From Candidatus Omnitrophota bacterium (GTDB taxonomy: Bacteria; Omnitrophota; Omnitrophia; Omnitrophales; JACROU01): a stretch of DNA of 64,000 nucleotides. Shown here piece by piece: positions 2,682 to 62,735 of this stretch (positions are counted from its first letter, which is position 1; each line of letters opens with the position of its first letter). Under the pieces are notes generated by a model. The model did not search any database, was not told the DNA's origin, and was given only the letters and a program-made list of their open reading frames with translations. The stretch covers positions 372,001 through 436,000 of the forward strand of contig JAJDCD010000008.1 in the NCBI GenBank assembly GCA_029261035.1, written 5' to 3'. A program made the position numbers and the translations under genes.

Positions 2682-3149
2682 CTAGCGACGGATTTGGCTT
2701 GCGAATCGGTTCGCACTGCTTAAAACAGTTTGAAGCGTTCGATTACTTTCACGGGCCATATCCACCTGATACCGTCTTTCTTCACGCATGGTATCAACCG
2801 TTTTCACAGGTCTCCCAACCACTTGAACGGGCCTAGTTTCTGTGATTTGGGTTTCTCGCCAGGGAATCGTAATTGGTCCATCACTTGCACTTTGGCTATC
2901 TTTCAAATTCTCATAAGCTAAAGCTGCACCTTGAACAATCACTCCCGCCGTAACAATTGCAACCGTTAAGACAAGTCCCCCGTAAATCCCTCGTTTAAGC
3001 AATCCTCCGAATTTACTTAAAATGCTTCTCACCAATATTCGCAATTGCTCACTTTTGCTGTAATGCTCTATCACTTTCACTTCCGTTACTGCTCGTAGAC
3101 CTGAAAATTTGTTAATTCTCATAGGCATCTCTATTTCACTTGCTCTCAT
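2682..3149 (-). CDS. single-pass membrane protein of unknown function (mobile element)
   Basis: 155 aa, not recognised. The start is supported by AAGGAG about 9 nt upstream. The first 50 residues are basic, then one hydrophobic segment (about residues 58-78, rich in V, A, G and I) spans the membrane. The remaining approximately 75 residues are polar with several Arg and Gln and are predicted periplasmic. It is the first gene of the operon leading to the replication-relaxation protein and coupling ATPase, so a role in conjugation or element maintenance is plausible but unproven. Confidence 0.55.
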   Translation of the reverse strand: MRASEIEMPMRINKFSGLRAVTEVKVIEHYSKSEQLRILVRSILSKFGGLLKRGIYGGLVLTVAIVTAGVIVQGAALAYENLKDSQSASDGPITIPWRETQITETRPVQVVGRPVKTVDTMREERRYQVDMARESNRTLQTVLSSANRFASQIRR

Positions 3150-3369
3150 CGCTTTAATCTCCTTTTCACAAAGTTGGCTTTAGCGCCAGTTTTACCTCCC
3201 GAATTTAGGATCGGGTATTTGATTTTTTGATAGTTCTCTTCATATAGGGGCACGAAACCCCATTTTTTGAATGATTTTTTAAGGGTATTTCTCTATAGGA
3301 TATTTTTTTAACCCTCTGTTCTTTTTAATCAATCTTACTCATCATTTATGACCCAACCTTTTTGCAATA

Positions 3370-3474
3370 GCACCTGGATACGCCATATTTAACCGTTCGA
3401 CTACGGTCTCTTAAATAAAATAATGTCGAGAGAGCGTAGTCGAACGGTGGGTAGAGGCAGATTTTCCCAGGTGC
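3370..3474. repeat. nested inverted repeat (REP-like palindrome inside a second inverted repeat)
   Basis: An inner 14-bp inverted repeat (3392-3405 and 3435-3448, core CCGTTCGACTACG) lies inside an outer 8-bp inverted repeat GCACCTGG/CCAGGTGC (3370-3377 and 3467-3474). It sits in the 430-bp gene-free stretch 3150-3578, which otherwise shows only a weak GGGG/CCCC hairpin followed by T residues (3247-3267). The inner palindrome resembles short dispersed repeats seen in many genomes. Confidence 0.6.
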
Positions 3475-3578
3475 GGGCAATCGCCAGATGAAATAATGGA
3501 ATTAAGACAGAAAGTAAGATTTAGAAAGAAGGGATACGATTTGAGGAACTTAAAACTTCGTAAAATTCAAGTCCCTCA

Positions 3579-3953
3579 TCAAGCGGCTGTTTTGTTTTGT
3601 GTGAGTATTTCTGGTGGGTGGGATTTTCCCCAGATGAATGCATTCTGGTACTTCCTACATCCACGGCACTTTTCTCTTGTCCCCTGAAAATCCTTCTCAT
3701 AACGATCTCCGCAATTTTTACACTCGTAGACGAAGGTAAAAAGATGGGACTCCCCTTCAGCCTGGAAAGCTTTGTGCGGAAGGAGTTTCTGCTCACACCG
3801 TTGACACATGACCCACAGACCATCTGGGTCCACCGTATCTCCTGCTGCTTCAAAAAGCACCCGGTCACAACCTTTTGGACAGCGTACCTCTTTGTAGTTG
3901 CCCCGAAGGTCTTCACGCCTCAAGACCGGGACGCCTTTTTCATTCTTGCTCAT
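3579..3953 (-). CDS. zinc-ribbon protein of unknown function
   Basis: 124 aa from the ATG at 3953, which has an excellent AAGGAGG 10 nt upstream; a longer reading from 3980 would place that Shine-Dalgarno inside the gene. It has three Cys clusters: CPKGC near the N-terminus, CQRC in the middle, and CKNC...CRGC in a C-terminal ribbon. Spacing suggests one or two structural Zn sites, as in small nucleic-acid-binding ribbons. No catalytic domain is visible. It stands alone between the mobile-element end and the LacI gene. Overlapping ORFs in other frames lack such a pattern. Confidence 0.6.
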   Translation of the reverse strand: MSKNEKGVPVLRREDLRGNYKEVRCPKGCDRVLFEAAGDTVDPDGLWVMCQRCEQKLLPHKAFQAEGESHLFTFVYECKNCGDRYEKDFQGTREKCRGCRKYQNAFIWGKSHPPEILTQNKTAA

Positions 3954-45040: not shown

Positions 45041-45832
45041 CTAATTTGAAGCGATCTTGTTCAAGTCTATACCTGCGAACAGCAACACACACTGTGAGTT
45101 ATTCGTAAGACGCGTCATGGTTTGAGTCGCAGATTCGCCATATAACTCAGCTAGTTCTGTTATTGTATGAACAACATCTCTCGGTTCTGAATTTCGAGAG
45201 CCTATTTTAGCAAATGGAGCATCTGTTTCTGTCAGTATTCGGTCTTTTGGAATACTCTGAACCAGAGCACGCCCGCGATCATGTTTGAGCATCGCGGAGT
45301 TTACTGAAAAAAAGCAACCTGCATCAGCTGCGCGTCTTGCTTCTGAGAGCGATCCCGAAAACCAGTGCAGTATGCATAACACTTTAGCGGGATCGCTACG
45401 CTCCTCTATCATAGCAATCACGTCACGTGCTGCGCGTCGACTATGAATAGTCAAAACTCGTCCGCCGTTCCTTTGCGAAGCTTCAAGTACACGGGAAAAC
45501 GCTTTTTTCTGCATTTCATAACTAGCGCTGTGCTGAGGACTACCGTCTAACCCGACTTCGCCAACAAGACGGCAATCGCCAATTAACTGCTCAAGCATCA
45601 CTATCTCCGCATGCCTTTTACCGACAAGCTCCGGGTGTAAACCAACCGCTGCATGTACATATGGACTAGCTTTCATCCATGAATGATTCTGAGCCCAAGC
45701 TTTTGGCGTAGTCGTCACAGCAACAACAGCTATACGATCTCTTTCACATTGCTCTATAACAGCAACGGGATCGGCGTGCAAATCAACGTGACAATGAAAG
45801 TCAAAACCTACTATCCCCTTATTTGTGCTCAC
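45041..45832 (-). CDS. qatD: QatD, TatD-family metal-dependent hydrolase of a Qat defence system
   Basis: 263 aa with a GTG start overlapping the qatC stop (GTGA). TatD-like TIM-barrel markers: FDFHCHVDLHADP at the N-terminus (HxH), GEVGLDGSP, LTIHSRRA, LHWFSGS and a final TETDAPF. TatD enzymes are metal-dependent 3'-5' nucleases or amidohydrolase-type enzymes. Here it is the last of four genes in the order known for the Qat anti-phage system, so a defence effector or processing role is likely. Confidence 0.88.
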   Translation of the reverse strand: MSTNKGIVGFDFHCHVDLHADPVAVIEQCERDRIAVVAVTTTPKAWAQNHSWMKASPYVHAAVGLHPELVGKRHAEIVMLEQLIGDCRLVGEVGLDGSPQHSASYEMQKKAFSRVLEASQRNGGRVLTIHSRRAARDVIAMIEERSDPAKVLCILHWFSGSLSEARRAADAGCFFSVNSAMLKHDRGRALVQSIPKDRILTETDAPFAKIGSRNSEPRDVVHTITELAELYGESATQTMTRLTNNSQCVLLFAGIDLNKIASN

Positions 45833-47193
45833 GGTATTTGTATCACCACGTCATCAACAATTTTTGCAACCTCAGCAATACCTCTTCTAAAAACGGCAGA
45901 GTATTCCAATATCTCCTCCGGCGAATAATCATCAAATGAGCCAGTTTTATGAATCAAAATGTCTGACAGTGCAGGCTTCCGCGAAAGTCGATGGCTCATC
46001 ATTTGAAATGCTCTCACGTCTGTTGCTTCTTTCTGTTTCGCATTAAGCGCTCGAACAGTCAAATCAGGTATGGAATAATTTGTAGAATCCACCCCAAACG
46101 CTGCATGAATTGAAGCTCGACGAATCAAGCATGGCGTGCAGTAGCCGCAGTGCCCTGGCGGACGCCCTTTCCACCGACCTTTGGAAAAGGAGGAACAAGA
46201 TATAGTGATGTCTGCATACTTTTTTAGAAAGGCCACATTTGTACACGCAGAAAGCATTTCACCTTTGGTTTTGAAGCGATAGGGATTCAAAAGTTTCGCT
46301 CCTAGCCCCAAGTTATCCAAAAGTTTTTGCCAGAGAGCCATATAAAAAGGATGCGTTGTACGCGTGCTCCATGCACCAAGTCTCAGTGGATCAAGTGGTA
46401 CGTTTAAAGAGATTAGACCATTCTCTGGGACATAAAGTGGTGTGATGCCGCCGTCCATCGAACTCGCAGCTAAAACCGCCAGCGCAAAGAATATGAAAGA
46501 TCGTCCTCTCGTTGTTGTCTCCGTACCTAGGCCAGTCATGTCATTTTTATCAAAGCTCACATTGGCTCGGACATGGTGAGAGTAAAAATCCCCATATTCT
46601 TCCTCTAATTTGTCGGCACAAATAACCTGACTCTTAGTACTTACATCACGGTAATGGCTAACGAAAACGGTTTTCTTACTAGCTGCAAGCAGGTCAATTG
46701 CTCCGACAAAGCTGTCGAGTCCCCCCGAAAAAAGACAGACGCTATCAAATGTAGTTTTCACAAGTTCTGGGGTTCTCTTGATCAGCGATTCCAGACCCTT
46801 CTGCCTGGGTCTAAAAAAAATCCGCCAGTGATCACCGGTCAGGAATTTCAACGTCCTCTCTATTAGTTTAACATTTGAGTCCCAGTCATCGGGTTTTGCA
46901 ACTGGAATATACAGATCAATCTCGCGTGTCCAACTATCCTGAGAATCAGATACTCGTGAGATTTTGGTATCAGCAGCTGCGACTGTTGCTGCGAGAATAG
47001 CCAAATCAATCGCACTCTCCGGCGGGTACATCCCGCGCTGTGTGAGTTGGTCGAGCATCTGGCCAATGCCATGATTCAAGCGACGGTCATCATCGACAAA
47101 GTGAAGCACTGTAGTCAGTGAAGTTCTATCCTTCACTTTCACTTTTGTTTTGTCGGATGCATTAAGCCGCACCACGATGCTATGACGTTTCAT
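45829..47193 (-). CDS. qatC: QatC, QueC-like ATP-pyrophosphatase of a Qat defence system
   Basis: 454 aa from ATG 47193, which overlaps the qatB stop as ATGA. The PP-loop SGGLDS starts at residue 156 (VCLFSGGLDSFVGAIDLL), and a C-terminal zinc motif CGYCTPCLIRR follows. This is the 7-cyano-7-deazaguanine synthase fold with an extra 150-residue N-terminal domain absent from QueC. Qat systems use it for an unknown nucleotide- or protein-modifying reaction. No queC-D-E-F neighbours occur, supporting a defence role rather than queuosine synthesis. Confidence 0.9.
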   Translation of the reverse strand: MKRHSIVVRLNASDKTKVKVKDRTSLTTVLHFVDDDRRLNHGIGQMLDQLTQRGMYPPESAIDLAILAATVAAADTKISRVSDSQDSWTREIDLYIPVAKPDDWDSNVKLIERTLKFLTGDHWRIFFRPRQKGLESLIKRTPELVKTTFDSVCLFSGGLDSFVGAIDLLAASKKTVFVSHYRDVSTKSQVICADKLEEEYGDFYSHHVRANVSFDKNDMTGLGTETTTRGRSFIFFALAVLAASSMDGGITPLYVPENGLISLNVPLDPLRLGAWSTRTTHPFYMALWQKLLDNLGLGAKLLNPYRFKTKGEMLSACTNVAFLKKYADITISCSSFSKGRWKGRPPGHCGYCTPCLIRRASIHAAFGVDSTNYSIPDLTVRALNAKQKEATDVRAFQMMSHRLSRKPALSDILIHKTGSFDDYSPEEILEYSAVFRRGIAEVAKIVDDVVIQIP

Positions 47194-48080
47194 CCTTCTC
47201 GATCTCCCAATTGCTGCAAAAGATCCCACGCTTCAAGGTAGGTCTTGTCAACGATCTCCCTGATGTCCTCATCGGACATATTGGATAGTTTTTCAAAATC
47301 ACTCGTAAAAGAGTCACGCACAGTTCTTTGGATATAATCCCTAAACTGCCTATCGAATCCATCGATATCATCTAGTCCTTCGGAAAACCGGAATCCGTTT
47401 ATACCGATTTCTTGATATAATCGTGACTCAATCGTATGCCCAAGAAAGCTAAGGAAAATCTCCTGGGTTGCTTCATGTGATAATGCATCAAAATCATCAA
47501 TGCCAAACTGATCCAACTCGGCAATCGTTTCCAGCCATGCGTCTCGTGCGATAGCTTCGTCGACTGATCCACCATCACGACAAATAACCTCGGTAAAACC
47601 AATGAATACGTCTTGGATTTTTCGACCTGATAACTTTTGAAGGTTAAGACGTTGTAATGTCGCCTGTATGCCATCGCGTTGAATGCCTCGGAACACACCA
47701 AGTGCGTTACTCGCCGCTGAACGTGATGCACCCATGCGTCGTACTGCATTCCGGCTGCCGCCTGTCCCAGAACGAACATAATCACGTACAGCTCTTCTAA
47801 GTGATCGCACATTACTGCCGCCAGAACCAACGAACCGTGAAAAATTAGTCCGCGCACCTCTAAAACGTTCTGCCTGGGGAGGAGGTATTGCGGGAAACTC
47901 TTTTCCATTATCTTCAGAGTCTGGTTGCGCGGCGGGGTTACCATTGCCTCCAATGTCATCTTGCTGCTGCATCACAAGGGCGTCACTACACGGCAACAAA
48001 CCAAGAGGTTCATTCTCTAGCCATGTTGGTACGAGAGGCGTCCCTGAACTAGAACCTGATGAAGTTCCTGATGTACCCAT
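47190..48080 (-). CDS. qatB: QatB component of a Qat defence system
   Basis: 296 aa. The N-terminus is Gly/Ser/Thr-rich (GTSGTSSGSSSGTP) and likely disordered, with a motif VPTWL. The middle contains RFRGARTNFSRFVGSGGS, and the C-terminal half is helical (FIGFTEVICRDGGSVDEAIA, WDLLQQLGDREG). No enzymatic motif is visible. It is identified by its place between the KAP ATPase and QueC-like genes, as in qatABCD. It lies 3 bp after qatA. Confidence 0.82.
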   Translation of the reverse strand: MGTSGTSSGSSSGTPLVPTWLENEPLGLLPCSDALVMQQQDDIGGNGNPAAQPDSEDNGKEFPAIPPPQAERFRGARTNFSRFVGSGGSNVRSLRRAVRDYVRSGTGGSRNAVRRMGASRSAASNALGVFRGIQRDGIQATLQRLNLQKLSGRKIQDVFIGFTEVICRDGGSVDEAIARDAWLETIAELDQFGIDDFDALSHEATQEIFLSFLGHTIESRLYQEIGINGFRFSEGLDDIDGFDRQFRDYIQRTVRDSFTSDFEKLSNMSDEDIREIVDKTYLEAWDLLQQLGDREG

Positions 48081-48083
48081 ATA

Positions 48084-50021
48084 TTAATAAGCCCCTTGAT
48101 CCAGTGCTTTAAGCGCTGCTGGTGCACCTTGTTTTAACAAGGAGTTATCCTCTTGAGTTTCCCATCCTCGTATCACCGACTTCAATTCATCACGAGCCTT
48201 CGACTCCGTAATAGCCTCGTTCCAACCTTTCAATATCCAAAGCCCTACTTTTTTAGGATCAAGGCTGCCCAATAATTTCACAACTTCGCTTTGAAATTGA
48301 TGGTGATGTTTAGCCACTATGGTGAGACCGTTTATACCGGGCGGTGGGTTGTTAAGACTACTCACACTAAGAACTCGCTCTCGCAATACACTAAAAATGG
48401 TATTCGCATCACCTTCAATCAATGCTTTAACCTCCGATTCCGCCGTTCTAACTTCTAACTGCGACCCACAAAGTCTTTTAATTAATGCCTCCAAAGCTCC
48501 CGACCCGCTCTCTCCACTAAGCATACGCTTGTCGCGCACTACGAATACATATGGTCGCAAATCTTCATTTCCGAGCTCGGGCTTAATTTGGAGCCAACGT
48601 TTTAGCCAATCACGTTCAAGCCATTTATCAGCACCCGCTTGTTGAATTTCTTTCTCTGATGTCATCACTTTCTTATCTCTACTTTTCTTCTTTTCATCCG
48701 ATTGAGCCCCCTTACCATAACCTTCTAAGTAGACGACATCTCTAGCCTTCCCGCTATCAGAAGTCATAGCTTGTGCGGCAACGCGCTCATAAAAATCAGG
48801 TTGGAAACGTTCAGCGAGCATAAGCTTAGCTAACACAGGCTGATTAATTAGCCCCTCAAACCCTCTCGCTTTCGCAATCATTTGACGTACAATCAATGCG
48901 TTAAGAAAACGCTTTACCTGCCGCGGGTTTCCTTTCGTGCCCTCCGCAAGCATTGGGGCAATTTGTTGCGCCAAAACAAATGCTAAATCCAAGCCTTCCT
49001 TCTTCGCATTATCCACCTCTTGAACATCAGTTTGCGATAGGCTGGCTCCAAGCCAGGGTTTCTTCAAGCCCTCTTTCGCTTTCATCAGAAGCCTATTAAA
49101 ACCATCATGATCTTCCCCAACTAGACTCTGTACCAACAAAAGAGTCACATAAGTGCGAGTTTCCTGAGCACCAAGCATCGGTATCGTGAACGGAATCTGG
49201 ACAAGCTTTTCCAAATAATTTCGTGCATATGGTAAAGGCCCAGACGCAACTGGCAAATCTGGAAAATGCTGTCGTACTGCATATTCGATCATTGCCTCAT
49301 CAGCAGCAATAATAAATGCTGTTTTGGGCACAAATAAAAATAACCGAATAGCTTCCAGTGTCTCAATTGCTGTTGTGGGAAGGCATCGATCGAGATCATC
49401 AATCAACACAACAAGTTGATCAACCTTTGCCTCCTGAAGCAACTCTTGAAAGTCTTTTCGAAACTCATGGATGGTATCCGGCAAATTCTCACCATCCTCA
49501 GACGGCTTTAGAAAGCCCGCTACTTCTTCGACACGCGCTGGGATCTCACTAGGATTGATACTTGCAGCATTTTGAGCCAGATCCTTCAGCGTACTGAGAG
49601 CAGTTCCAATTTGATCTGGAGAGGGTAAACCCGTGATAATATTAAAAGCCACGCCACTACCACGTTTGGCGACTTTCAGCCAATTCACGCGCTTAATCAG
49701 TTTATTGGCAAACTCTTTAACCTTACCTACCGTTGAACGCTGTCGACACAGCTCAGTAATCGTCGCTTCAATCAAAACAGTCTTCGCATCATCAAACCCT
49801 TCAAATGTCCAACCATTAAACCACAGCACGGCAACGTTTTTATCCGAGGACAAATCCTTCTCAATCATTTTGAGAATACTAGATTTGCCAGCTCCCCAAT
49901 CACCATGGATACCAATCGTCAATGGACGACTACGATTATGTTTTAATGTTTCGATAATCGTTTGCGAAATAGCCTCACAATTAAGAAAATCAACTTCTGT
50001 CTCGTTGTCTGGAATTAGCAT
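48084..50021 (-). CDS. qatA: QatA, KAP-family P-loop NTPase of a Qat defence system
   Basis: 645 aa. Walker A GDWGAGKS is at residues 40-47, and Walker B (VVLIDDLDRCLP) near residues 205-216, followed by ETLEAIRLFLF and a KAP-type sensor region (GNPRQVKRFLNAL). KAP NTPases are often membrane-associated scaffolds; no clear TM insert is visible here. It is the first gene of a four-gene operon with a TATAAT-like -10 (50086-50081) upstream. It probably senses infection or assembles the QatBCD complex. Confidence 0.9.
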   Translation of the reverse strand: MLIPDNETEVDFLNCEAISQTIIETLKHNRSRPLTIGIHGDWGAGKSSILKMIEKDLSSDKNVAVLWFNGWTFEGFDDAKTVLIEATITELCRQRSTVGKVKEFANKLIKRVNWLKVAKRGSGVAFNIITGLPSPDQIGTALSTLKDLAQNAASINPSEIPARVEEVAGFLKPSEDGENLPDTIHEFRKDFQELLQEAKVDQLVVLIDDLDRCLPTTAIETLEAIRLFLFVPKTAFIIAADEAMIEYAVRQHFPDLPVASGPLPYARNYLEKLVQIPFTIPMLGAQETRTYVTLLLVQSLVGEDHDGFNRLLMKAKEGLKKPWLGASLSQTDVQEVDNAKKEGLDLAFVLAQQIAPMLAEGTKGNPRQVKRFLNALIVRQMIAKARGFEGLINQPVLAKLMLAERFQPDFYERVAAQAMTSDSGKARDVVYLEGYGKGAQSDEKKKSRDKKVMTSEKEIQQAGADKWLERDWLKRWLQIKPELGNEDLRPYVFVVRDKRMLSGESGSGALEALIKRLCGSQLEVRTAESEVKALIEGDANTIFSVLRERVLSVSSLNNPPPGINGLTIVAKHHHQFQSEVVKLLGSLDPKKVGLWILKGWNEAITESKARDELKSVIRGWETQEDNSLLKQGAPAALKALDQGAY

Positions 50022-50992: not shown

Positions 50993-53900
50993 TTATGCTG
51001 CTCGTGCTATGGCTAAATCCGCTTCATGGGATTGAACTAGGGCTAATAAAGCTTCCCCTACCGCAGAGAAGAATCCATCTACTTTCCTTAATCCGTATTT
51101 CGTCAGGAAGGCTAATGGGTTCTCTGATTGAGTGTAGAGTAAAGCTACTCCTAAAAGCCCATTCTCTTCGTTTGGATATCTAAACTTATTGTCTCCGACT
51201 AATGTGAAGTCTTCTGCTGGATCAATGGTTCGAGATAAATGAAGATTATGTTGGGCTTTACGTATTCCCTTTGCAGCCTCTCTCGCATTTTGTGGAGTGA
51301 AGTGTATGTTTGGTAGATTAAGCAATGGTTGTTTATCATACGAACCTGCATTAGTAACCACCACTTGTAACTGCTTTGGATTCCTCGCTGCTAGTTTGAA
51401 GATTTCATCCAGTTGAGCACGAGAGAAGTTGTCTATGTCACGTCCGATGAAAACATTTATGGATTCTTTTAGGTTGTCTAGGACAGAAACATTTACAGAA
51501 CCCAAACTCTTCGCATCGGCTTCATCTTCTGTTCCCAATGATGCCCCACTCACTCTCTCTGGAAACACTTCATTAGGGAATAAACCTTGTTCGTATTCTG
51601 TGAAAGCAGGATCAATGTTGGCGTACAAGACGCGAACGGTTCCGTCGTTGCCTACAGTCACAAACTTTTTTTGATCAGGAGTTATAACAACATCTTGAAT
51701 TCCTCCACTATGTCCTTCTAGTCGTTGGCGCTCTTCTCCTGTCTGGATATCCCACATCCGTAGAGTTCCATCTCGATACCCTGTTACAATCTGTTGCCCA
51801 TCAGGAGTGATGGTTAGAACATCATCAACAAATCCACCATCCTCTTCAATATCACGATGCCCTCTAAACATCAGAAGCCGTTCCCCTGTATTTATATCCC
51901 AAACTCGAACAATTCCATCTTCACTGCTGGTTACAACCTTCTTGCTATCCGGGGTAATCGTAATGACCGTTACACTATCTGCTTCTTGCATAGGATTTAG
52001 ATCAAAACCAGGAATTCGTTGTTGGGTTTCTGTATCCCACACTTCTAAACGTCGGCCTTCATCCATAAAATTAAGGCTCGTCAAAGCCATTCGTTTGTTA
52101 TCAGGGCTTAAAGCAACAAAGGCTGCAGACGGGATTGCTTCTGATTCAATCATATAAAGACTCTCTTGGGTTTTCCAATCCAAAACTTGCACTCTTGTTA
52201 CCCATTCTCCTACGAGATCATTAGGAGCTGGTTCACTAATGACAAGATAACGTATAAACAAGCTCCCATCCCGACTAAAAGGTGTACTTCGATAAAATAT
52301 CTCATGCGGTGTAGATGGTGATACTGTTAATGATTCAAAAGGTGTCCAAAACAAAGTGTTAATTCCTTGATTCTGGGATATTAAAACTTTATTTCCATCA
52401 GGAGTAAAATAAGCAGCATCAGCATCAGAAGCGGATGCTGTTCTTTTTCCCGTTAACATGTCCCAAATAGTAACCCTTTGATCTAACCCTATAGTCACAA
52501 TTTGACTTCCATCTGGATGAATTGAAACTCTGTCTAGTGGACTTCCATAATTTGCTACTACCCGACTCCTTAACCTTTCTCCATCCCAACTGTAAAGACT
52601 ATCTATCACCCTATTTAAGCTCGGCAAATCCTCTCTTTCGAGAACTGCTTTCACACCACCCGCTCTTCCCACTGCTGCTAATAATGCCTTTAAATCTTCC
52701 TCATCTTCATGCGCTCCATATTGCTTCAGTGCTGCTTTAACTTTGTCTCTATCTGTCCCCAAACTCTTTGCATCGACTTCATCTTCTTCTGTCACAACTC
52801 CACCTTGAGCTGTTGTCTCCCATCCTTCTTTCAACCGATCCAGCTGTGTCAAAACTCGTTCTAGGCCAATAGCATCAATGCTCTCTAAAACCTCTAAAAC
52901 CTCTGGGGTGTGTTTGTGGGGAACGTAATATTCTTCTGTTGTACCATTAGTTAATTTAAATACTTTATCAAGTTTTCGATAAAACTCCTCTTTTGCATCC
53001 TCACTTAGCTCTTCATATTTTCTAAAAACATCATCAATCCTATCTAGCTGCTCTTTTACTCCTTGCTTAGAATCAATCCCTAAAGAAAGTATTATCGGAA
53101 CAAAAAGAGATGCTTCTGCTTCTTCAAAAAATCTCATGCTCCAATTTCTTACAAACCTCTGATAGTCTTCATCATTATTTTCGGCTACCATCTCCAATGT
53201 AAGATCTAATTTCTCCCAAAAAGCTATAAAATGCCCTCCCCAATCCTCACCACCACCCCCCTCTAGAACAAGGTTTTCAATAAAGGCTATAAAAAAATTA
53301 AGATTAAAAGTAGAAGGAGCTAACACTCCAAATCTCACAGCCCTAGTTAAAGAAATAAGAGGATCGTAATGACTACCGCCAACCTGATTTACTCGACTAG
53401 CGTAATAAAAAAACATTGTTTCCATCATCTCTCCATCTATCACTCCTGCTTGAACAGCTTTCCCTAAACTTAGAAGAGGATCGAAATAAATATAAAATTC
53501 ATGGTTAGCATCAGCATTTACAATACTACGGTCTAATAACTTACCTAACACTGAAGGGTCTGCTTCTCTATCTCTAACTGCTTCTATTAACCTTCTCAGA
53601 GATTCAAAATCTTCATCGCTCCCCCCCGTCGTGAAACCATGCGTAATTTTTAAAAAGCGCTCGACATCAAGTAAACTTTTGTCAGCACCACCCTCTTTAA
53701 CTGCCTGGGCAACAATCACTAAAAAACCAGAGATCTTCTCTAAATATCTACCCTCCTCCCTCCACTTTACATAACTAGTATTCGTTTCTGATACAGCTTT
53801 TAACAACGCAACAACGTCTTCTGTGGTCTGACCCGTCACATCCTTCAATTCCATTAATAATTCAAATGCTTCAAAAGCATTTGCTGTTTCACTTAAAATC

Positions 53901-54340
53901 TGAAGTACTTCTTTCTGGCTAATATTATACGACTCGCTAATAAATTTCCTCATTTCACCTGCCACTGCATCCTTAAAGAAATCACCCAATTCTTCATTAC
54001 GAAGTAATAGAGTTAATGATTGTATTATTTGCGCATTAGTACGGCCTGCCCTTATAAGTTTTTGTATATATTCAAAAATCAACGCAGTGTCTTTCCCAGA
54101 CTTCATTTGTTTTTCCAAATCTACCAAATCCCTGTCTGTCCCCAAACTCTTAGCATCTGCGTAATCTGGCTGCTCAGCATCCCTACCTTCTAATAATGCT
54201 TCTTCGTAAATAGATTGTGGTCTTGCTGCATACAAAGGAGTGGCATATTCAAAGATATTAAAAAGTGTGAAGAAAATGGACAGTAAAATAGTAGTGTTTT
54301 TGTGGAATATAGGTAATCCTGGTTTAGACTGACACTTCAT
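50993..54340 (-). CDS. secreted modular WD40 protein with A(K/Q)SLG junctions (paralogue 1)
   Basis: 1115 aa. A signal peptide (residues 1-38, FEYATPLYA) is followed by ARPQSIYEEA and the first junction DAKSLG (62-67). Residues 70-520 are helical repeats. A second DAKSLG (523-528) opens the module TDRDKVKAALKQYGAHED, which leads into WD40 repeats (about 600-905, for example GTVRVLYAN). The third junction ASLGTEDEADAKSLG ends at residue 947, and a 168-aa C-terminal domain follows (LDEIFKLAARNPKQLQVVV, LARAA-type end). It is the tandem paralogue of 54894-58847. Probably a surface or periplasmic interaction protein; function unknown. Confidence 0.75.
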   Translation of the reverse strand: MKCQSKPGLPIFHKNTTILLSIFFTLFNIFEYATPLYAARPQSIYEEALLEGRDAEQPDYADAKSLGTDRDLVDLEKQMKSGKDTALIFEYIQKLIRAGRTNAQIIQSLTLLLRNEELGDFFKDAVAGEMRKFISESYNISQKEVLQILSETANAFEAFELLMELKDVTGQTTEDVVALLKAVSETNTSYVKWREEGRYLEKISGFLVIVAQAVKEGGADKSLLDVERFLKITHGFTTGGSDEDFESLRRLIEAVRDREADPSVLGKLLDRSIVNADANHEFYIYFDPLLSLGKAVQAGVIDGEMMETMFFYYASRVNQVGGSHYDPLISLTRAVRFGVLAPSTFNLNFFIAFIENLVLEGGGGEDWGGHFIAFWEKLDLTLEMVAENNDEDYQRFVRNWSMRFFEEAEASLFVPIILSLGIDSKQGVKEQLDRIDDVFRKYEELSEDAKEEFYRKLDKVFKLTNGTTEEYYVPHKHTPEVLEVLESIDAIGLERVLTQLDRLKEGWETTAQGGVVTEEDEVDAKSLGTDRDKVKAALKQYGAHEDEEDLKALLAAVGRAGGVKAVLEREDLPSLNRVIDSLYSWDGERLRSRVVANYGSPLDRVSIHPDGSQIVTIGLDQRVTIWDMLTGKRTASASDADAAYFTPDGNKVLISQNQGINTLFWTPFESLTVSPSTPHEIFYRSTPFSRDGSLFIRYLVISEPAPNDLVGEWVTRVQVLDWKTQESLYMIESEAIPSAAFVALSPDNKRMALTSLNFMDEGRRLEVWDTETQQRIPGFDLNPMQEADSVTVITITPDSKKVVTSSEDGIVRVWDINTGERLLMFRGHRDIEEDGGFVDDVLTITPDGQQIVTGYRDGTLRMWDIQTGEERQRLEGHSGGIQDVVITPDQKKFVTVGNDGTVRVLYANIDPAFTEYEQGLFPNEVFPERVSGASLGTEDEADAKSLGSVNVSVLDNLKESINVFIGRDIDNFSRAQLDEIFKLAARNPKQLQVVVTNAGSYDKQPLLNLPNIHFTPQNAREAAKGIRKAQHNLHLSRTIDPAEDFTLVGDNKFRYPNEENGLLGVALLYTQSENPLAFLTKYGLRKVDGFFSAVGEALLALVQSHEADLAIARAA

Positions 54341-54564
54341 TTAGACAAAGTCCCCTTTGGGTAAAGGATACCATATTAAATTATATTGTAGAAATACCCA
54401 AAAATTACCCGCCGCGTGAGAGTCTGCCTAGTATACCCACTACCCCCGGGGTACCCCCGAAAGCAAGTTTGATAAGAATTGTAAGGTCTGAAATAAAAGG
54501 GCTTATTAGGTCTATTAGGAGGCTAAAACGGGTATGTTCATAGGGATACTTAAGGAAAATTGTT
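54341..54564 (-). promoter_or_regulatory. conserved leader of paralogue 1
   Basis: Nearly identical to 58848-59070. Features: AAAGGGGA Shine-Dalgarno-like site before the start, an AT-rich TATAATT-type region, and a palindrome GGGGTACCCC (54448-54457) in a C/G-tract about 110 nt upstream. No good -35 was found. Confidence 0.55.
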
Positions 54565-54613
54565 TTAAGCTACGTTGAGGAAATAGGTTCTAAGTTCATC
54601 TAGACAGTGACCC
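54565..54613 (-). repeat. 48-nt 5' repeat, copy 2
   Basis: Minus-strand reading GTCTAGATGAACTTAGAACC then TATTTCCTCAACGTAGCTTA. One frame gives CLDELRTYFLNVA-stop. Copies at 59071-59118 and 61065-61112 keep that frame, mostly with synonymous changes. Confidence 0.65.
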
Positions 54614-54618
54614 CATAT

Positions 54619-54651
54619 AAAAAAAGCCATCCAAAACGGATGGCTATTTTT
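54619..54651 (-). terminator. terminator downstream of paralogue 2, second copy
   Basis: Same GCCATCC-AAAAC-GGATGGC hairpin as at 50667-50699 with one change in the T-run. It ends the long 3' UTR of the 1317-aa gene. Confidence 0.82.
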
Positions 54652-54658
54652 ATGCCCA

Positions 54659-54679
54659 TGGTAAGCGACGGGACTTGAA
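54659..54679 (-). other. tRNA 3'-end-like sequence, second copy
   Basis: Minus strand reads TTCAAGTCCCGTCGCTTACC, one base different from 50707-50727. No 5' tRNA half adjoins it. Confidence 0.5.
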
Positions 54680-54717
54680 AAGAACGACGCCAAGTTTATC
54701 ACGCTGAAATAAATAAG

Positions 54718-54852
54718 GAGCTGACTCAATGTCAGGTCTTTATTTATTGAAGTCATTACAAGGAGTGAATGGCCGACCTGGAGTAAGTACTTGCGACCAG
54801 CAAGTAACGAACGTAAGGCGCCAAGTCCTCGACTAGAGAAGCTTTAGCACTC
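54718..54852 (-). repeat. conserved 3'-UTR element, copy 2 (compensatory stem change)
   Basis: Hairpin ACTTGC-GACCA-GCAAGT (54789-54805): both stem arms differ from copy 1 by a matching pair. The CTGAC-TCAAT-GTCAG hairpin (54721-54735) and GGCGCCAAGTCC are conserved. Confidence 0.6.
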
Positions 54853-54893
54853 TTAAATTACACCCAGCAAACTATTAAACTTCTAATTAAAAA

Positions 54894-57800
54894 CTACGCC
54901 GCTCGTGCTATAGCTAAATCTGCTTCGTGGGATTGAACTAAGGCTAACAAAGCCTCCCCTACTGCTGAGAAGAATCCATCTACTTTTCTTAATCCATACT
55001 TCGTTAGGAAGGCAATCTGATTATCTGATTGAGTGTAGAGCAAAGCTACTCCTAAGAGGCCATTCTCTTCGTCTGGATATCTAAACTTGTTGTCTCCAAC
55101 TAATGTGAAGTCATCTGAGGGATTTATTGTCTTGGACAGATGAAGGTTATGCTGAGCTTTCCGTATTCCTTTTGCTGCTTCTTTCGCACTCCGTGGGGTG
55201 AAGTGTATATTTGGCAGATTCAGTAATGGATGTTTATCATAGGATGGCGCATTAGTAACCACCACTTGTAACTGCTTTGGATTCCTTGCTGCTAGTTTGA
55301 AGATTTCATCTAGTTGAGCTTGTGAGAAATTATTGATGTCACCACCATGAACAAATATATTTGTGGATTGTTTTAATCTATCTAAGACAGAAACATCTAC
55401 AGCTCCCAAACTCTGTGCATCTACTTCTTCTATTGGAACCTCTGATGCCCCTAAACTTGCCGCCACAATTACTTGGCCATCTGTCACACTTCCTTGCCAA
55501 CGAGCAGTTCCATCATCAAAAACAACCTCTAAGTCTTTCCTTACCCCATCCCGAAGTTTTCCTGCATTATTTGGATCTTGAAATAACTCTTTTATTTCTT
55601 CTTCAGTTACAGACGTTCTTCTTAGAATTAAGCTTCTTAATTCCTTCAACTCTGACAATTCCACTAATTCACGAATATCCTCATTTCCTGTTAAATCAAG
55701 TACTTTTAATCCCTTTATCTGAACTAGTTGTGGAATAGCTAAATAACTTTCTAATTCTGCATCTTTAGCGATTAGCTCTTCTAATTTTGGAAGACGGGAT
55801 AATCTACCATACTCTGTCATGTATTTATTTCCACTCAAATTAAGTTTCCTCAAACTTTTAATTTCTATAAGTTCATCCAGATTATCATTAGTGGCATCAA
55901 ATGTAAGTGATATATTTAACTCTTCTAATTTTGAAAGTTTCGATAAACCTATAAAGGAGGGGCTATAAAAACCGAGATCTTCATCCATGTCCATGTCCAC
56001 ATCATCAATATAAAGATTCTCTGTCTGCATATAAAGCACTTCTTCTAAAGAGAGTTTTTTCAAACTTTTAATGTTCCCAATATCATCGATAGACGGCTTT
56101 CCAAGTGTAGAATTGTTTAAGTCTAAAGTTTCTAAACCTGGAATAGTAGATAGAGCTCCTAATTCAGTAAAGCTACTCAATTCTAAAGTGAGTTTTTTCA
56201 AGCCCTTATTTTCTGCTATTTGAGCAACAACTGTAGGATCACTTATATTTTCTCCTATCAACTCCTCCAATTGAATTGGTGCTAAAGAACCAATGTCAAA
56301 TGTTGGGTTTCCCACATATAAAGTACCCTTTACACCAAATGTCTTTCCCTCTATTTCTATCTTATACATTGCTCCGGAAGTAAGTTCATCTACTTGATTC
56401 ACCACCCTTTTTTCATGTTCTTCAAAAAAAGAAGTCGCAAAAGGAGAAATATCTTCGTTGCTCACAAATCTAATGAAAGCATCCTCAGCTTCAGCTCTAT
56501 TATCATCAACACCAAAATATTTTGGATTTAAAAATGAGAGGACAGCTCCAACATTTTCTACAGTTAATCCCCTAGACTTAATGAATGCGAATCCATACAT
56601 TAGCATATGACCAGTATCCCCAAAAGTTGCTTTGCTCTTCAACTCATATAGACTCGTGTCCATATTACCTAAACTCTGCGCATCTACACTTGCTCGAAGC
56701 CACTCTTCTTCATTCTGCGTTGGAGGCTCATCTTGAGACTCTCTTTCCCACTCTTCTTGCAATTGCTCCAGTTGTTTCAAAGCTTGATCCACACCTATAT
56801 CGTCTGCTCTCCTTACTATTTCTAATACTTCCTCTTTTCTAAATTCCTTGTTTATTCCCGTAAAAAAGACTCCAACATCTTCTTTCATAATCTCTACTAG
56901 CTCCTTTAAGAACTCCACATCTAATACTTCCTCTTTCACTTCTCCTTCTTTTACCCTCATTCCCAAACCTCTTAAAGAGTGAAATACCAGTGGTGAAAAC
57001 GGTCCAGTTTTTTCTGCTATTGCTATCAAAAGTTCAGCGTCCAGCACGTCTGACTTTGCTTCTCCTTCTCTCACTGCTTCACTCAATCTTCTTAAAGCTG
57101 AAAAGGTAGTTTCCGGATAAACGTCTTCGTCAATCTCGGTAATCACACCTAAGAGCTTTTCAGCTTCCACTAACAAAATTTCTTTTTCACTATTGCCAAT
57201 ATATTTCATCAACGTTTCTGTTGCAGTTTCCTCTTCTTTCAAAATCTTTACTAATGTTGGATAATCTCTTTCCAACTCTTCCCAACTTAGCTTTAATTGT
57301 TGAGGTAATTCTGATGCTTCATACTGTTCCTTTGCTCCCAAACTCTGAGCTTGTACTTCACCTTCTGTTTCCAACGATGCTTCACTCACTCTCTCTGGAA
57401 ATACGGTATTAGGAAAAAGACCTTCTTCAAACTCTTCAAATTCCGGCTTAATATTGGCATACCAAATATGAGCTGTGGTTTTCCAAATACGTTCGTTCGA
57501 AGGACGACCTGGTTCAGAAGTATTTATATAACTCGTTGCAACAGCAATTCTTCCATCTTGACTAACTTCTAAAGAAGACTGATTATTTTCAATCTCCCAA
57601 ATATGTCCTCTAATCATCCATTCAACACTTTCTCCTGTATTCAAAACAGCCTGTTCTTCTCCTGTTTCCACATCCCAAATCTGCACAGAATCAATATCAG
57701 CCCCATCAGCCCCATCATCCCCCATCATCAACACTTCTCTGCTATTCAAACTAGTAAACACCATATAATAACGATGCTCTTGGTTTCCAAAAGATATCTT

Positions 57801-58847
57801 CTCCCCCGTTTTCAAATCCAAAATCCAATGAGGACCATCTTCACTTACTCCGATTAATTGTTTACTATCCGCTGTTATAGCTACTGCACGAAGATTATCA
57901 AATGGCCCTAACATTCTAGATTCAGCTTTTTTTTCAACATCCCATATTCGCACCAATATTGGGTACCCATACTCTTGACCTTCTGGTCTATGGAGTGTCA
58001 CAATCTTGCTTCCATCTGGACTAATTACAACTGTCGGATCAATAGTATTTTTAAGCCCTCTCACAACAACCTCTTCTTGCCCCGTGTTTATATTCCATAC
58101 CCGCAGTGCATCATCTCCACTCAGAGTTACAAACTTGGTCCCATCTGGAGTAATGGCAACTGCCAATATGCCATTCTCATTATCTTTCACCACCAATTTT
58201 TCTATTCCAGTTTTCACATCCCATACCCGTGCTGTTCCATCCGAACTTGCCGTAACAATATCATTTCCATCCGAACTAATTGCGACCCCATTAACACGGC
58301 CTTCATGCCCTCTCAAAATCAGTTTCACATCTCCAGTTTCTATATCCCAAATATGCACATTATAATCACCTCCCGATGTTGCTACACGCATCCCATCTGG
58401 GGTTATTGCAAATCTATACAAAGAATCCGTTCTCGTTGGAATTGACAATTTTTTAGCTCTTAAATTCCCTCCAGACCATGTATAAAGTTCACTCACCACC
58501 TTTCTTAATGCAGGTAAGTTCTCTCTTTCCATTACTGCCTCAACACCGCCCGCTCTTCCCACTGCTGCTAATAATGCTTTTAAATCTTCTATGTCTTCAT
58601 GAGCTCCATATTGCTTCAGTGCCGCTTTAACTTTGTCTCTGTCTGTCCCTAAACTCTTCGCGTCTGCGTAGTCTGGCTGCTGAGCATCACTAGCTTTTAA
58701 TACTGCTTCTTCGTAAATAGATTGCGGTCTTGCTGCATAAAGAGGTGTGGCATATTCAAAGATATTAAAAAGCATGAAGGAAATGAACACAAAAATAGCG
58801 ATGGTTTTGTGCAATATAGGTAATCCTGGCTTAGACTGACATCTCAT
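54894..58847 (-). CDS. secreted modular WD40/LRR protein with A(K/Q)SLG junctions (paralogue 2)
   Basis: 1317 aa. The N-terminus is nearly identical to paralogue 1 (signal peptide, ARPQSIYEEA, DAKSLG at 62-67). The TDRDKVKAALKQYGAHED module and WD40 region follow at once (about 68-480), ending ERVSEASLE. AQSLG (500-504) opens a helical region, DAQSLG (722-727) a further region, then leucine-rich repeats (about 870-1115: LKKLSLEEV, LEELNIS, LRKLNLSGNKY, LKVLDLTGNED). AASLG and DAQSLG (1143-1148) precede a 169-aa C-terminal domain, near-identical to that of paralogue 1. Likely surface or periplasmic binding; function unknown. Confidence 0.75.
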   Translation of the reverse strand: MRCQSKPGLPILHKTIAIFVFISFMLFNIFEYATPLYAARPQSIYEEAVLKASDAQQPDYADAKSLGTDRDKVKAALKQYGAHEDIEDLKALLAAVGRAGGVEAVMERENLPALRKVVSELYTWSGGNLRAKKLSIPTRTDSLYRFAITPDGMRVATSGGDYNVHIWDIETGDVKLILRGHEGRVNGVAISSDGNDIVTASSDGTARVWDVKTGIEKLVVKDNENGILAVAITPDGTKFVTLSGDDALRVWNINTGQEEVVVRGLKNTIDPTVVISPDGSKIVTLHRPEGQEYGYPILVRIWDVEKKAESRMLGPFDNLRAVAITADSKQLIGVSEDGPHWILDLKTGEKISFGNQEHRYYMVFTSLNSREVLMMGDDGADGADIDSVQIWDVETGEEQAVLNTGESVEWMIRGHIWEIENNQSSLEVSQDGRIAVATSYINTSEPGRPSNERIWKTTAHIWYANIKPEFEEFEEGLFPNTVFPERVSEASLETEGEVQAQSLGAKEQYEASELPQQLKLSWEELERDYPTLVKILKEEETATETLMKYIGNSEKEILLVEAEKLLGVITEIDEDVYPETTFSALRRLSEAVREGEAKSDVLDAELLIAIAEKTGPFSPLVFHSLRGLGMRVKEGEVKEEVLDVEFLKELVEIMKEDVGVFFTGINKEFRKEEVLEIVRRADDIGVDQALKQLEQLQEEWERESQDEPPTQNEEEWLRASVDAQSLGNMDTSLYELKSKATFGDTGHMLMYGFAFIKSRGLTVENVGAVLSFLNPKYFGVDDNRAEAEDAFIRFVSNEDISPFATSFFEEHEKRVVNQVDELTSGAMYKIEIEGKTFGVKGTLYVGNPTFDIGSLAPIQLEELIGENISDPTVVAQIAENKGLKKLTLELSSFTELGALSTIPGLETLDLNNSTLGKPSIDDIGNIKSLKKLSLEEVLYMQTENLYIDDVDMDMDEDLGFYSPSFIGLSKLSKLEELNISLTFDATNDNLDELIEIKSLRKLNLSGNKYMTEYGRLSRLPKLEELIAKDAELESYLAIPQLVQIKGLKVLDLTGNEDIRELVELSELKELRSLILRRTSVTEEEIKELFQDPNNAGKLRDGVRKDLEVVFDDGTARWQGSVTDGQVIVAASLGASEVPIEEVDAQSLGAVDVSVLDRLKQSTNIFVHGGDINNFSQAQLDEIFKLAARNPKQLQVVVTNAPSYDKHPLLNLPNIHFTPRSAKEAAKGIRKAQHNLHLSKTINPSDDFTLVGDNKFRYPDEENGLLGVALLYTQSDNQIAFLTKYGLRKVDGFFSAVGEALLALVQSHEADLAIARAA

Positions 58848-62095: not shown

Positions 62096-62407
62096 CTAAG
62101 CGGCTTTCTTCTTTGGCTTATTCAACTCAATTCGAAAGTGAATACCTAAAGCTTTTAACAACATCATCACACTTCCCCACTCAGGATTTCCTTTTTTTGA
62201 CAACATCTTGTATAGACTGACTCTATTTAATTTTGTCTTTCGAGAGAACTTGCTTAAACCACCTTGCGCTTCGATCACATTACGCAAAGCAAGAAGAAAC
62301 AACTTTTCATCCCCTTCCTCTAAAGCTTCGTTTAAATAGGCTTTAGCCTCATGAAGGTCTTTCAGGTCTTGAATTAAATCTTCATGATAATCTTTAAATG
62401 GTTTCAT
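62096..62407 (-). CDS. HigA2-type antitoxin
   Basis: 103 aa. N-terminal helical part (FKDYHEDLIQDLKDLHEAKAYL) and a C-terminal HTH (GGLSKFSRKTKLNRVSLYKML, then GNPEWGSVMMLLKALGIHF). This matches the putative addiction-module antidote family paired with Gp49-like killers. It starts 1 bp after the toxin gene stop. It binds and neutralises the toxin and probably represses the operon. Confidence 0.85.
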   Translation of the reverse strand: MKPFKDYHEDLIQDLKDLHEAKAYLNEALEEGDEKLFLLALRNVIEAQGGLSKFSRKTKLNRVSLYKMLSKKGNPEWGSVMMLLKALGIHFRIELNKPKKKAA

Positions 62408-62408
62408 T

Positions 62409-62735
62409 TTATACTCTCCTCTTAAAATCTTTCCAATACTCTTTAGCCTTTTCTATGTCTTTATTTTGTTGCTTTTTATCTCCTCCACATAAGAGGACAA
62501 CAATCGTTTTTTTGTATTGAGCATAATAAATTCTATACCCTGCACCAAAAAACAACCTTAATTCACAAACCCCACTTCCAATAGATTTTACATCTCCAAA
62601 ATGACCTAACTCTAAACGGTCAATTCGCGTTCGAATCCTGGACCTTATTCGAACGTCTTTAATGGATTTAAACCATTTTCTAAAAGGCACATCCCCATCT
62701 ACTGCTTGGTATTGGAGTATTTGTACTTCATTCAT
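62409..62735 (-). CDS. RelE/HigB-superfamily toxin (addiction-module killer)
   Basis: 108 aa. FRKWFKSIKDVRIRSRIRTR, then GDVKSIGSGVCELRLFFGAGYRI and VVLLCGGDKKQQNKDIEKAK match the Gp49-like (TIGR02683-type) killers. It probably cleaves mRNA at the ribosome. The toxin-first gene order is typical of hig-like modules. It appears intact. Confidence 0.87.
   Translation of the reverse strand: MNEVQILQYQAVDGDVPFRKWFKSIKDVRIRSRIRTRIDRLELGHFGDVKSIGSGVCELRLFFGAGYRIYYAQYKKTIVVLLCGGDKKQQNKDIEKAKEYWKDFKRRV

Follow-up and report, generated by a model that had tools for sequence, protein, structure and literature searches.

Two neighbouring genes in a 64,000-nucleotide stretch of a Candidatus Omnitrophota genome (order Omnitrophales; assembly GCA_029261035.1, contig JAJDCD010000008.1, positions 372,001–436,000, forward strand; hereafter the window) encode proteins in which related modules stand in a different order and a short peptide stands wherever one module meets the next, which raises the question of what this peptide does. 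The open reading frames (ORFs), confirmed by translation, are W1 (1115 amino acids (aa), 54340-50993, minus strand) and W2 (1317 aa, 58847-54894, minus strand), and both open with a signal peptide plus the leader ARPQSIYEEA, contain a TDRDKVKAALKQYGAHED-WD40 module and end in a C-terminal domain of ~168 aa. W1 is arranged as leader, helical module, WD40 module and C-terminal domain, and W2 as leader, WD40 module, helical module, leucine-rich-repeat (LRR) module and C-terminal domain; the first delimiter starts at residue 63 in both, and what precedes the WD40 module is the second motif in W1 (residue 524) and the first motif in W2 (residue 63). The initial annotation had described this shared inventory, the displaced WD40 module, the helical and LRR modules in the remaining slots and a motif at every module boundary, all of which are borne out by the translations and by BLASTN: [AG]xSLG occurs four times in W1 and five times in W2, always at a junction. 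As bare SLG also occurs twice inside the helical module of W1 (291 and 419), the delimiter is [AG]xSLG rather than SLG. Homologous DNA blocks between the two genes (W1 1-212 with W2 1-212; 1567-1718 with 184-335; 2715-2840 with 1386-1511; and 2794-3347 with 3397-3953) end no more than about 5 codons from a motif.

The motif extends far beyond these two genes, confirming the earlier observation at a much larger scale: [AG]xSLG is a genome-wide delimiter between the interchangeable modules of dozens of giant, apparently secreted proteins. Two or more motifs occur in at least 27 of the genome's ORFs, which are 600 to over 5,700 aa long; the set was drawn from regions fetched around DNA matches to the motif, and as the genome was sampled in stretches, counts of giants are lower bounds. 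These 27 ORFs (69.7 thousand aa (kaa)) contain 148 [AG]xSLG motifs, against 8.3 expected after shuffling of their residues and 9 (0.12 per kaa) in 230 neighbouring ORFs (75 kaa), and a genome search for A[KQ]SLG as DNA returned 116 matches, many of them clustered, versus 21 with the reversed pattern. The motif can be written [VIAS]-[ESDQ]-[A>G]-[QKSAN]-S-L-G, with little information beyond it, and its flanks are richer in polar and disorder-prone residues than random positions (z about 10.8). The longest ORF within a cut stretch has 5,732 aa, and the longest open frame 6,470 aa. Judged by hydropathy only, 19 of the 21 giants with an intact start have an N-terminal hydrophobic segment, versus 96 of 221 other ORFs.

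Cutting the giants at their motifs yields domain-sized segments (median 349 aa) that fall into clusters recurring in varied order, among them helical module A (36 copies), N-terminal module B (20 proteins), the C-terminal domain C (7), the WD40 module D (4 copies) and protein kinases (E). Pfam domains in these giants include WD40, LRR, inositol monophosphatase, methyltransferase, metallophosphatase, DnaJ and five protein-kinase stretches, and those in the giants of relatives HD, ribulose-phosphate epimerase, HAD, ROK, NAD-dependent epimerase and TPR. The five kinase stretches lie between delimiters of a single predicted secreted protein of 3,398 aa (L102; genome G000, contig C16:19771-29967), in which the domains start shortly past a motif, with glycine loops about 10–20 residues after it. 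Across ten Pfam-bearing proteins, none of the 59 delimiters lies inside a Pfam envelope (7.0 expected, P about 4e-4); the scatter within folded domains that the initial annotation had named as a refuting outcome was not seen. Of the endpoints of all-against-all alignments, 12.9% fell within 15 aa of a motif versus 7.1% in the null; this excess is weak because internal ends arise in WD40, HEAT-like and LRR repeats, and module strings and Pfam envelopes were therefore used instead. Together with the DNA block ends of W1 and W2 and the absence of motifs from Pfam domains, the module strings of the 27 giants support the proposal of the initial annotation that modules were shuffled with breakpoints at the motif.

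The initial annotation further cast the motif as a short coding sequence at which shuffling occurs, and of this the position of the breakpoints stands but a mere recombination seed does not. At non-homologous junctions the flanks show a pairwise identity of ~0.07 per position, the serine codons of the 148 motifs draw on both codon boxes (AGY 97, TCN 51) and SLG is encoded by 51 distinct 9-mers. Given these unconserved flanks and the use of both serine boxes, selection acts on the peptide, and we rejected a pure DNA recombination hot spot as the sole cause, since flanks and codons vary, while retaining it as a contributor.

Module B allows the first junction to be followed among relatives. Of 145 genomes in the phylum, 85 encode it (alignments A2, A3 and A5); many genomes within the order have 10–19 copies, and elsewhere it is often a single protein of ~530 aa; 77 of 80 B-encoding loci in the genome_contigs collection are labelled Omnitrophota, Omnitrophica or Omnitrophus, and open frames containing it reach 35,113 aa (genome G018, contig C37, near 183561) and 23,964 aa (G025, C88, near 88718). 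In most giants of the order the first delimiter lies about 75–260 aa past the GGFH of B, whatever the delimiter sequence. Pfam searches with B modules gave chance-level matches only, and a PDB sequence search no convincing match. The AlphaFold2 model of B (predicted local distance difference test (pLDDT) 88.8) has as structural neighbours EreC (Z 8.8), HopBA1 (8.7), the Bacillus Ere-like BcR135 (8.7) and ChaN (8.4) over 148–173 aligned residues, scores only modestly above those of unrelated folds (1va0 also gives 8.4). Assignment to an EreA/ChaN/TIKI-like fold thus leans also on the QDAH, E and GGxH residues that are invariant in alignments A3 and A5 (that is, an H...E...GxxH pattern), and the predicted fold of B may resemble these domains, from which it differs in a long helical insertion and in having no Pfam assignment.

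Relatives within the order carry a different peptide, R[SA]ExR or [SAT]GFGA, at corresponding junctions of such proteins. [AG]xSLG is found in families f1, f4 and probably f6 (on two motifs only), [SAT]GFGA in f2 and R[SA]ExR in f3, f5, f7 and f8, with f7 having 6 RxExR beside 3 SLG-type motifs; in relatives the C-terminal domain sits in ORFs of up to 14 kaa and is preceded by RSExR. Unbiased k-mer counts returned these peptides as the top word or among the top words (RSELR in G021 and G032, RSEMR in G036 and G019, RSETR in G037, [SA]GFGA in G003, RAEVR in G004 and G009, ASLG in G001 and G014), and observed over expected counts are nearly exclusive: for example, 27/1.5 for RxExR and 2/1.9 for SLG-type in G021, 10/0.1 for GFGA in G003 and 9/0.5 for SLG-type in G014. 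Giants outside the order (f10, f14, f16 and f23; few were sampled) have none of the three motifs above chance. In an RpoB tree every RSExR genome falls in one clade (support 100/99), and the base of the order, from which the SLG and GFGA families diverge, is unresolved; SLG may be ancestral. As a separate observation, RpoB of G019 (C13:211024-212690) lies in two overlapping pieces with internal TAA and TGA codons, either an assembly error or a real interruption.

The far end of the proteins is conserved in another manner. The C-terminal domain has seven copies in the genome, each in an ORF with a related hydrophobic N-terminus, and in six of the seven a delimiter lies between a ~25-aa post-signal leader and the first module. 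The 168-aa domain matched nothing in Pfam, PDB or NCBIfam, nor in a scan of the genome_contigs collection, and its AlphaFold2 model, built from the two window sequences only (pLDDT 37), is too poor for any fold claim. The chain ends in -AA in 21 of 23 giants of this genome versus 5 of 214 other ORFs; most giants of the order have AA or SA at the end, which is not so in three complete giants from outside it. This suggests that the -AA/-SA ends are a shared terminal signal, with a role in secretion or stability being possible. A short amphipathic-looking segment precedes -AA/-SA in the order's giants, regardless of the family of their C-terminal domain.

On the basis of the distribution of the delimiter, we suggest, at roughly even odds (a probability of about 0.5), that it is the recognition site, and most likely the cleavage site, of a co-evolving trans-acting enzyme, and that the giants are secreted polyproteins. 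A peptide that dozens of proteins keep at module edges amid unrelated flanks, and that is swapped clade-wide, points to a co-evolved reader, and the presence of different peptides (RSExR and GFGA) at corresponding junctions, combined with conservation of the peptide, argues for a recognised site. This was the second suggestion of the initial annotation, which had raised a possible proteolytic or sorting site of a multi-part surface protein; for a surface location, the N-terminal hydrophobic segments are the indication. The factor that reads the delimiter would have changed its specificity together with the sites; the likeliest such factor would be an endopeptidase acting after export, which may cut each chain into separate effectors or enzymes (that is, kinase, WD40, LRR, HEAT-like, DnaJ, methyltransferase, phosphatase and sugar-enzyme modules). 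We infer cleavage in particular because it is the most economical explanation for a delimiter that splits a ~25-aa leader from the first module, and because there is a precedent in Mycoplasma hyopneumoniae (see below). On this view the giant genes would encode secreted bacterial polyproteins, and recombination at junctions could yield new module combinations because a module between two delimiters would stay processable. A broader scenario, to which we give somewhat less credence, is that the order maintains a polyprotein economy, with dozens of effectors and enzymes made as chains, one peptide serving as the 'comma' and a dedicated enzyme reading it, and that comma and reader were rewritten together more than once (SLG, GFGA and RSExR).

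Several observations weigh against a cleaved polyprotein. Searches of the S41, S26 and S8 peptidase families found no processing enzyme: S41, a candidate reader prompted by the -AA C-termini, and S26 have 0–2 copies per genome and no relation to motif type, and subtilases (S8) are absent from 3 of 3 f1 genomes and likewise distributed without relation to it. A site of the signal-peptidase type ([VIAST]-x-[AG] before the cut, the -3/-1 rule) was not adopted either, as it suits SLG sites but does not fit RSExR, and S26 is not expanded. In relatives, no delimiter can be recognised at some junctions: some first delimiters lie >300 aa from GGFH, and one protein (L112) has three Pfam domains between its delimiters at 1160 and 3312 with no recognisable delimiter among them. 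Genome-wide DNA pattern counts in relatives point in the same direction as the protein counts, but these excesses are rough because the reversed patterns differ in base context. Codon usage at the motifs is also biased, AGY accounting for 97 of 148 serines (66%), against 191 of 529 (36%; P=3e-10) in S-L pairs elsewhere, and CGC-TCN is preferred in the f5 motifs; junction similarity is thus partly inherited and DNA was copied too, which agrees with shuffling at junctions. Such shared DNA ancestry would also be expected if the delimiter were only a linker or cap and a recombination scar, one junction per lineage having spread by DNA copying under mild structural constraint and with no reader. 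The homology blocks of W1 and W2 that end at the motif fit this account, as does the single RSExR clade, for which one event could suffice. We nevertheless consider it rather doubtful, given that only five residues are conserved, between random flanks and with variable synonymous sites (copying of DNA by itself should preserve flanks and codons as a unit), and that chemically different peptides at corresponding junctions are odd for a structural cap.

Less probable again is a reader that does not cut, such as a glycosyltransferase, a cross-linking or sorting enzyme, an export chaperone or a docking scaffold. The same genomic evidence (that is, a lineage-specific, peptide-level signal at junctions) would serve it equally, and the serine of SLG and RSExR could bear a modification; however, other residues take the place of serine at some sites (RAEVR in f3 and f8, AGFGA and TGFGA in f2), which weakens serine modification, and no candidate factor is known. 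The draft assembly, probably metagenome-derived, might also have fused ORFs through sequencing or assembly errors, or the motif might reflect composition, but uninterrupted frames across many independent genomes with hundreds of sites refute such an artefact, and the contrast with shuffled sequence and with giants outside the order is strong, which leaves it very improbable.

Cutting between domains has parallels in other bacteria. In Porphyromonas gingivalis, RgpA, Kgp and HagA are secreted multidomain chains that are cut between domains by an Arg/Lys-specific protease, to which the R-rich RSExR is comparable; they are a few proteins of one species with a known protease and a type IX secretion system C-terminal domain, for which the Pfam and NCBIfam searches gave no match here. 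The P97/P102 adhesins of M. hyopneumoniae are processed at a motif, S/T-X-F|X-D/E, as proven by proteomics; these large surface proteins are cut in acidic disordered linkers, and so efficiently that the pre-proteins are hard to detect (PMC4772806). Like the delimiter, that motif is short and degenerate, but phylum and motif differ, the modules are not a shuffled set of enzymes, and the available text describes no switch of motif between lineages. Giant ORFs of Omnitrophota are themselves already known, including a 39,678-aa protein of Ca. Velamenicoccus archaeovorus, and have been presented as poorly conserved and obscure in function, with a role in predation or attachment proposed (Seymour et al. 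2023, PMC10066038). They share with the proteins described here the phylum, the very long ORFs and the scarcity of annotated domains. The lineage specificity of the delimiter appears to be new: the literature searched, including the accessible portions of PMC10066038, describes no delimiter peptide, module punctuation or lineage-specific motif for Omnitrophota giants, and no paper joining Omnitrophota with polyproteins was found in a search whose scope lay outside preprints and most subscription journals, so that a prior description is possible.

These ORFs are among the longest known genes. The delimiter offers an operational way to split them into modules for structure prediction and annotation, and makes it possible to ask directly by proteomics whether each is one giant protein or several. 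The exchange of peptides in the same places among relatives suggests an uncharacterised lineage-specific recognition, and probably cutting, system, and points to a trans-acting enzyme with evolvable specificity; were cleavage true, this would be a genome-scale bacterial polyprotein system.

Table 1 Modules and delimiters of the two window proteins (coordinates in the window)
Feature	Position	Strand	Basis
W1 residues 1-62, signal peptide + ARPQSIYEEA leader	54155..54340	-	translation; also in W2
W1 delimiter 1, AKSLG (63-67)	54140..54154	-	
W1 helical module, type A (36 genome copies)	52772..54139	-	module clustering
W1 delimiter 2, AKSLG (524-528)	52757..52771	-	
W1 TDRDKVKAALKQYGAHED + WD40 module, type D	51548..52756	-	Pfam WD40 595-904
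W1 delimiter 3, GASLG (932-936)	51533..51547	-	
W1 delimiter 4, AKSLG (943-947)	51500..51514	-	
W1 C-terminal domain, type C (7 genome copies), ends -AA	50996..51499	-	no Pfam, PDB or NCBIfam match
W2 residues 1-62, signal peptide + leader	58662..58847	-	DNA match to W1
W2 delimiter 1, AKSLG (63-67)	58647..58661	-	
W2 WD40 module, type D	57351..58646	-	Pfam
W2 delimiter 2, AQSLG (500-504)	57336..57350	-	
W2 helical module, type A	56682..57335	-	module clustering
W2 delimiter 3, AQSLG (723-727)	56667..56681	-	
W2 leucine-rich-repeat module	55464..56666	-	Pfam LRR_4
W2 delimiter 4, AASLG (1129-1133)	55449..55463	-	
W2 delimiter 5, AQSLG (1144-1148)	55404..55418	-	
W2 C-terminal domain, type C, ends -AA	54897..55403	-	

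The window also holds a Qat anti-phage defence operon (45041-50021, minus strand), in which PADLOC models identify QatA (48084-50021, E 1e-253), QatB (47190-48080) and QatC (45829-47229); the TatD-like ORF after them (45041-45832) has the place and sequence expected of QatD. At 62096-62735 (minus strand), two adjacent small ORFs resemble, by eye, a toxin of the HigB/RelE type and a helix-turn-helix antitoxin.
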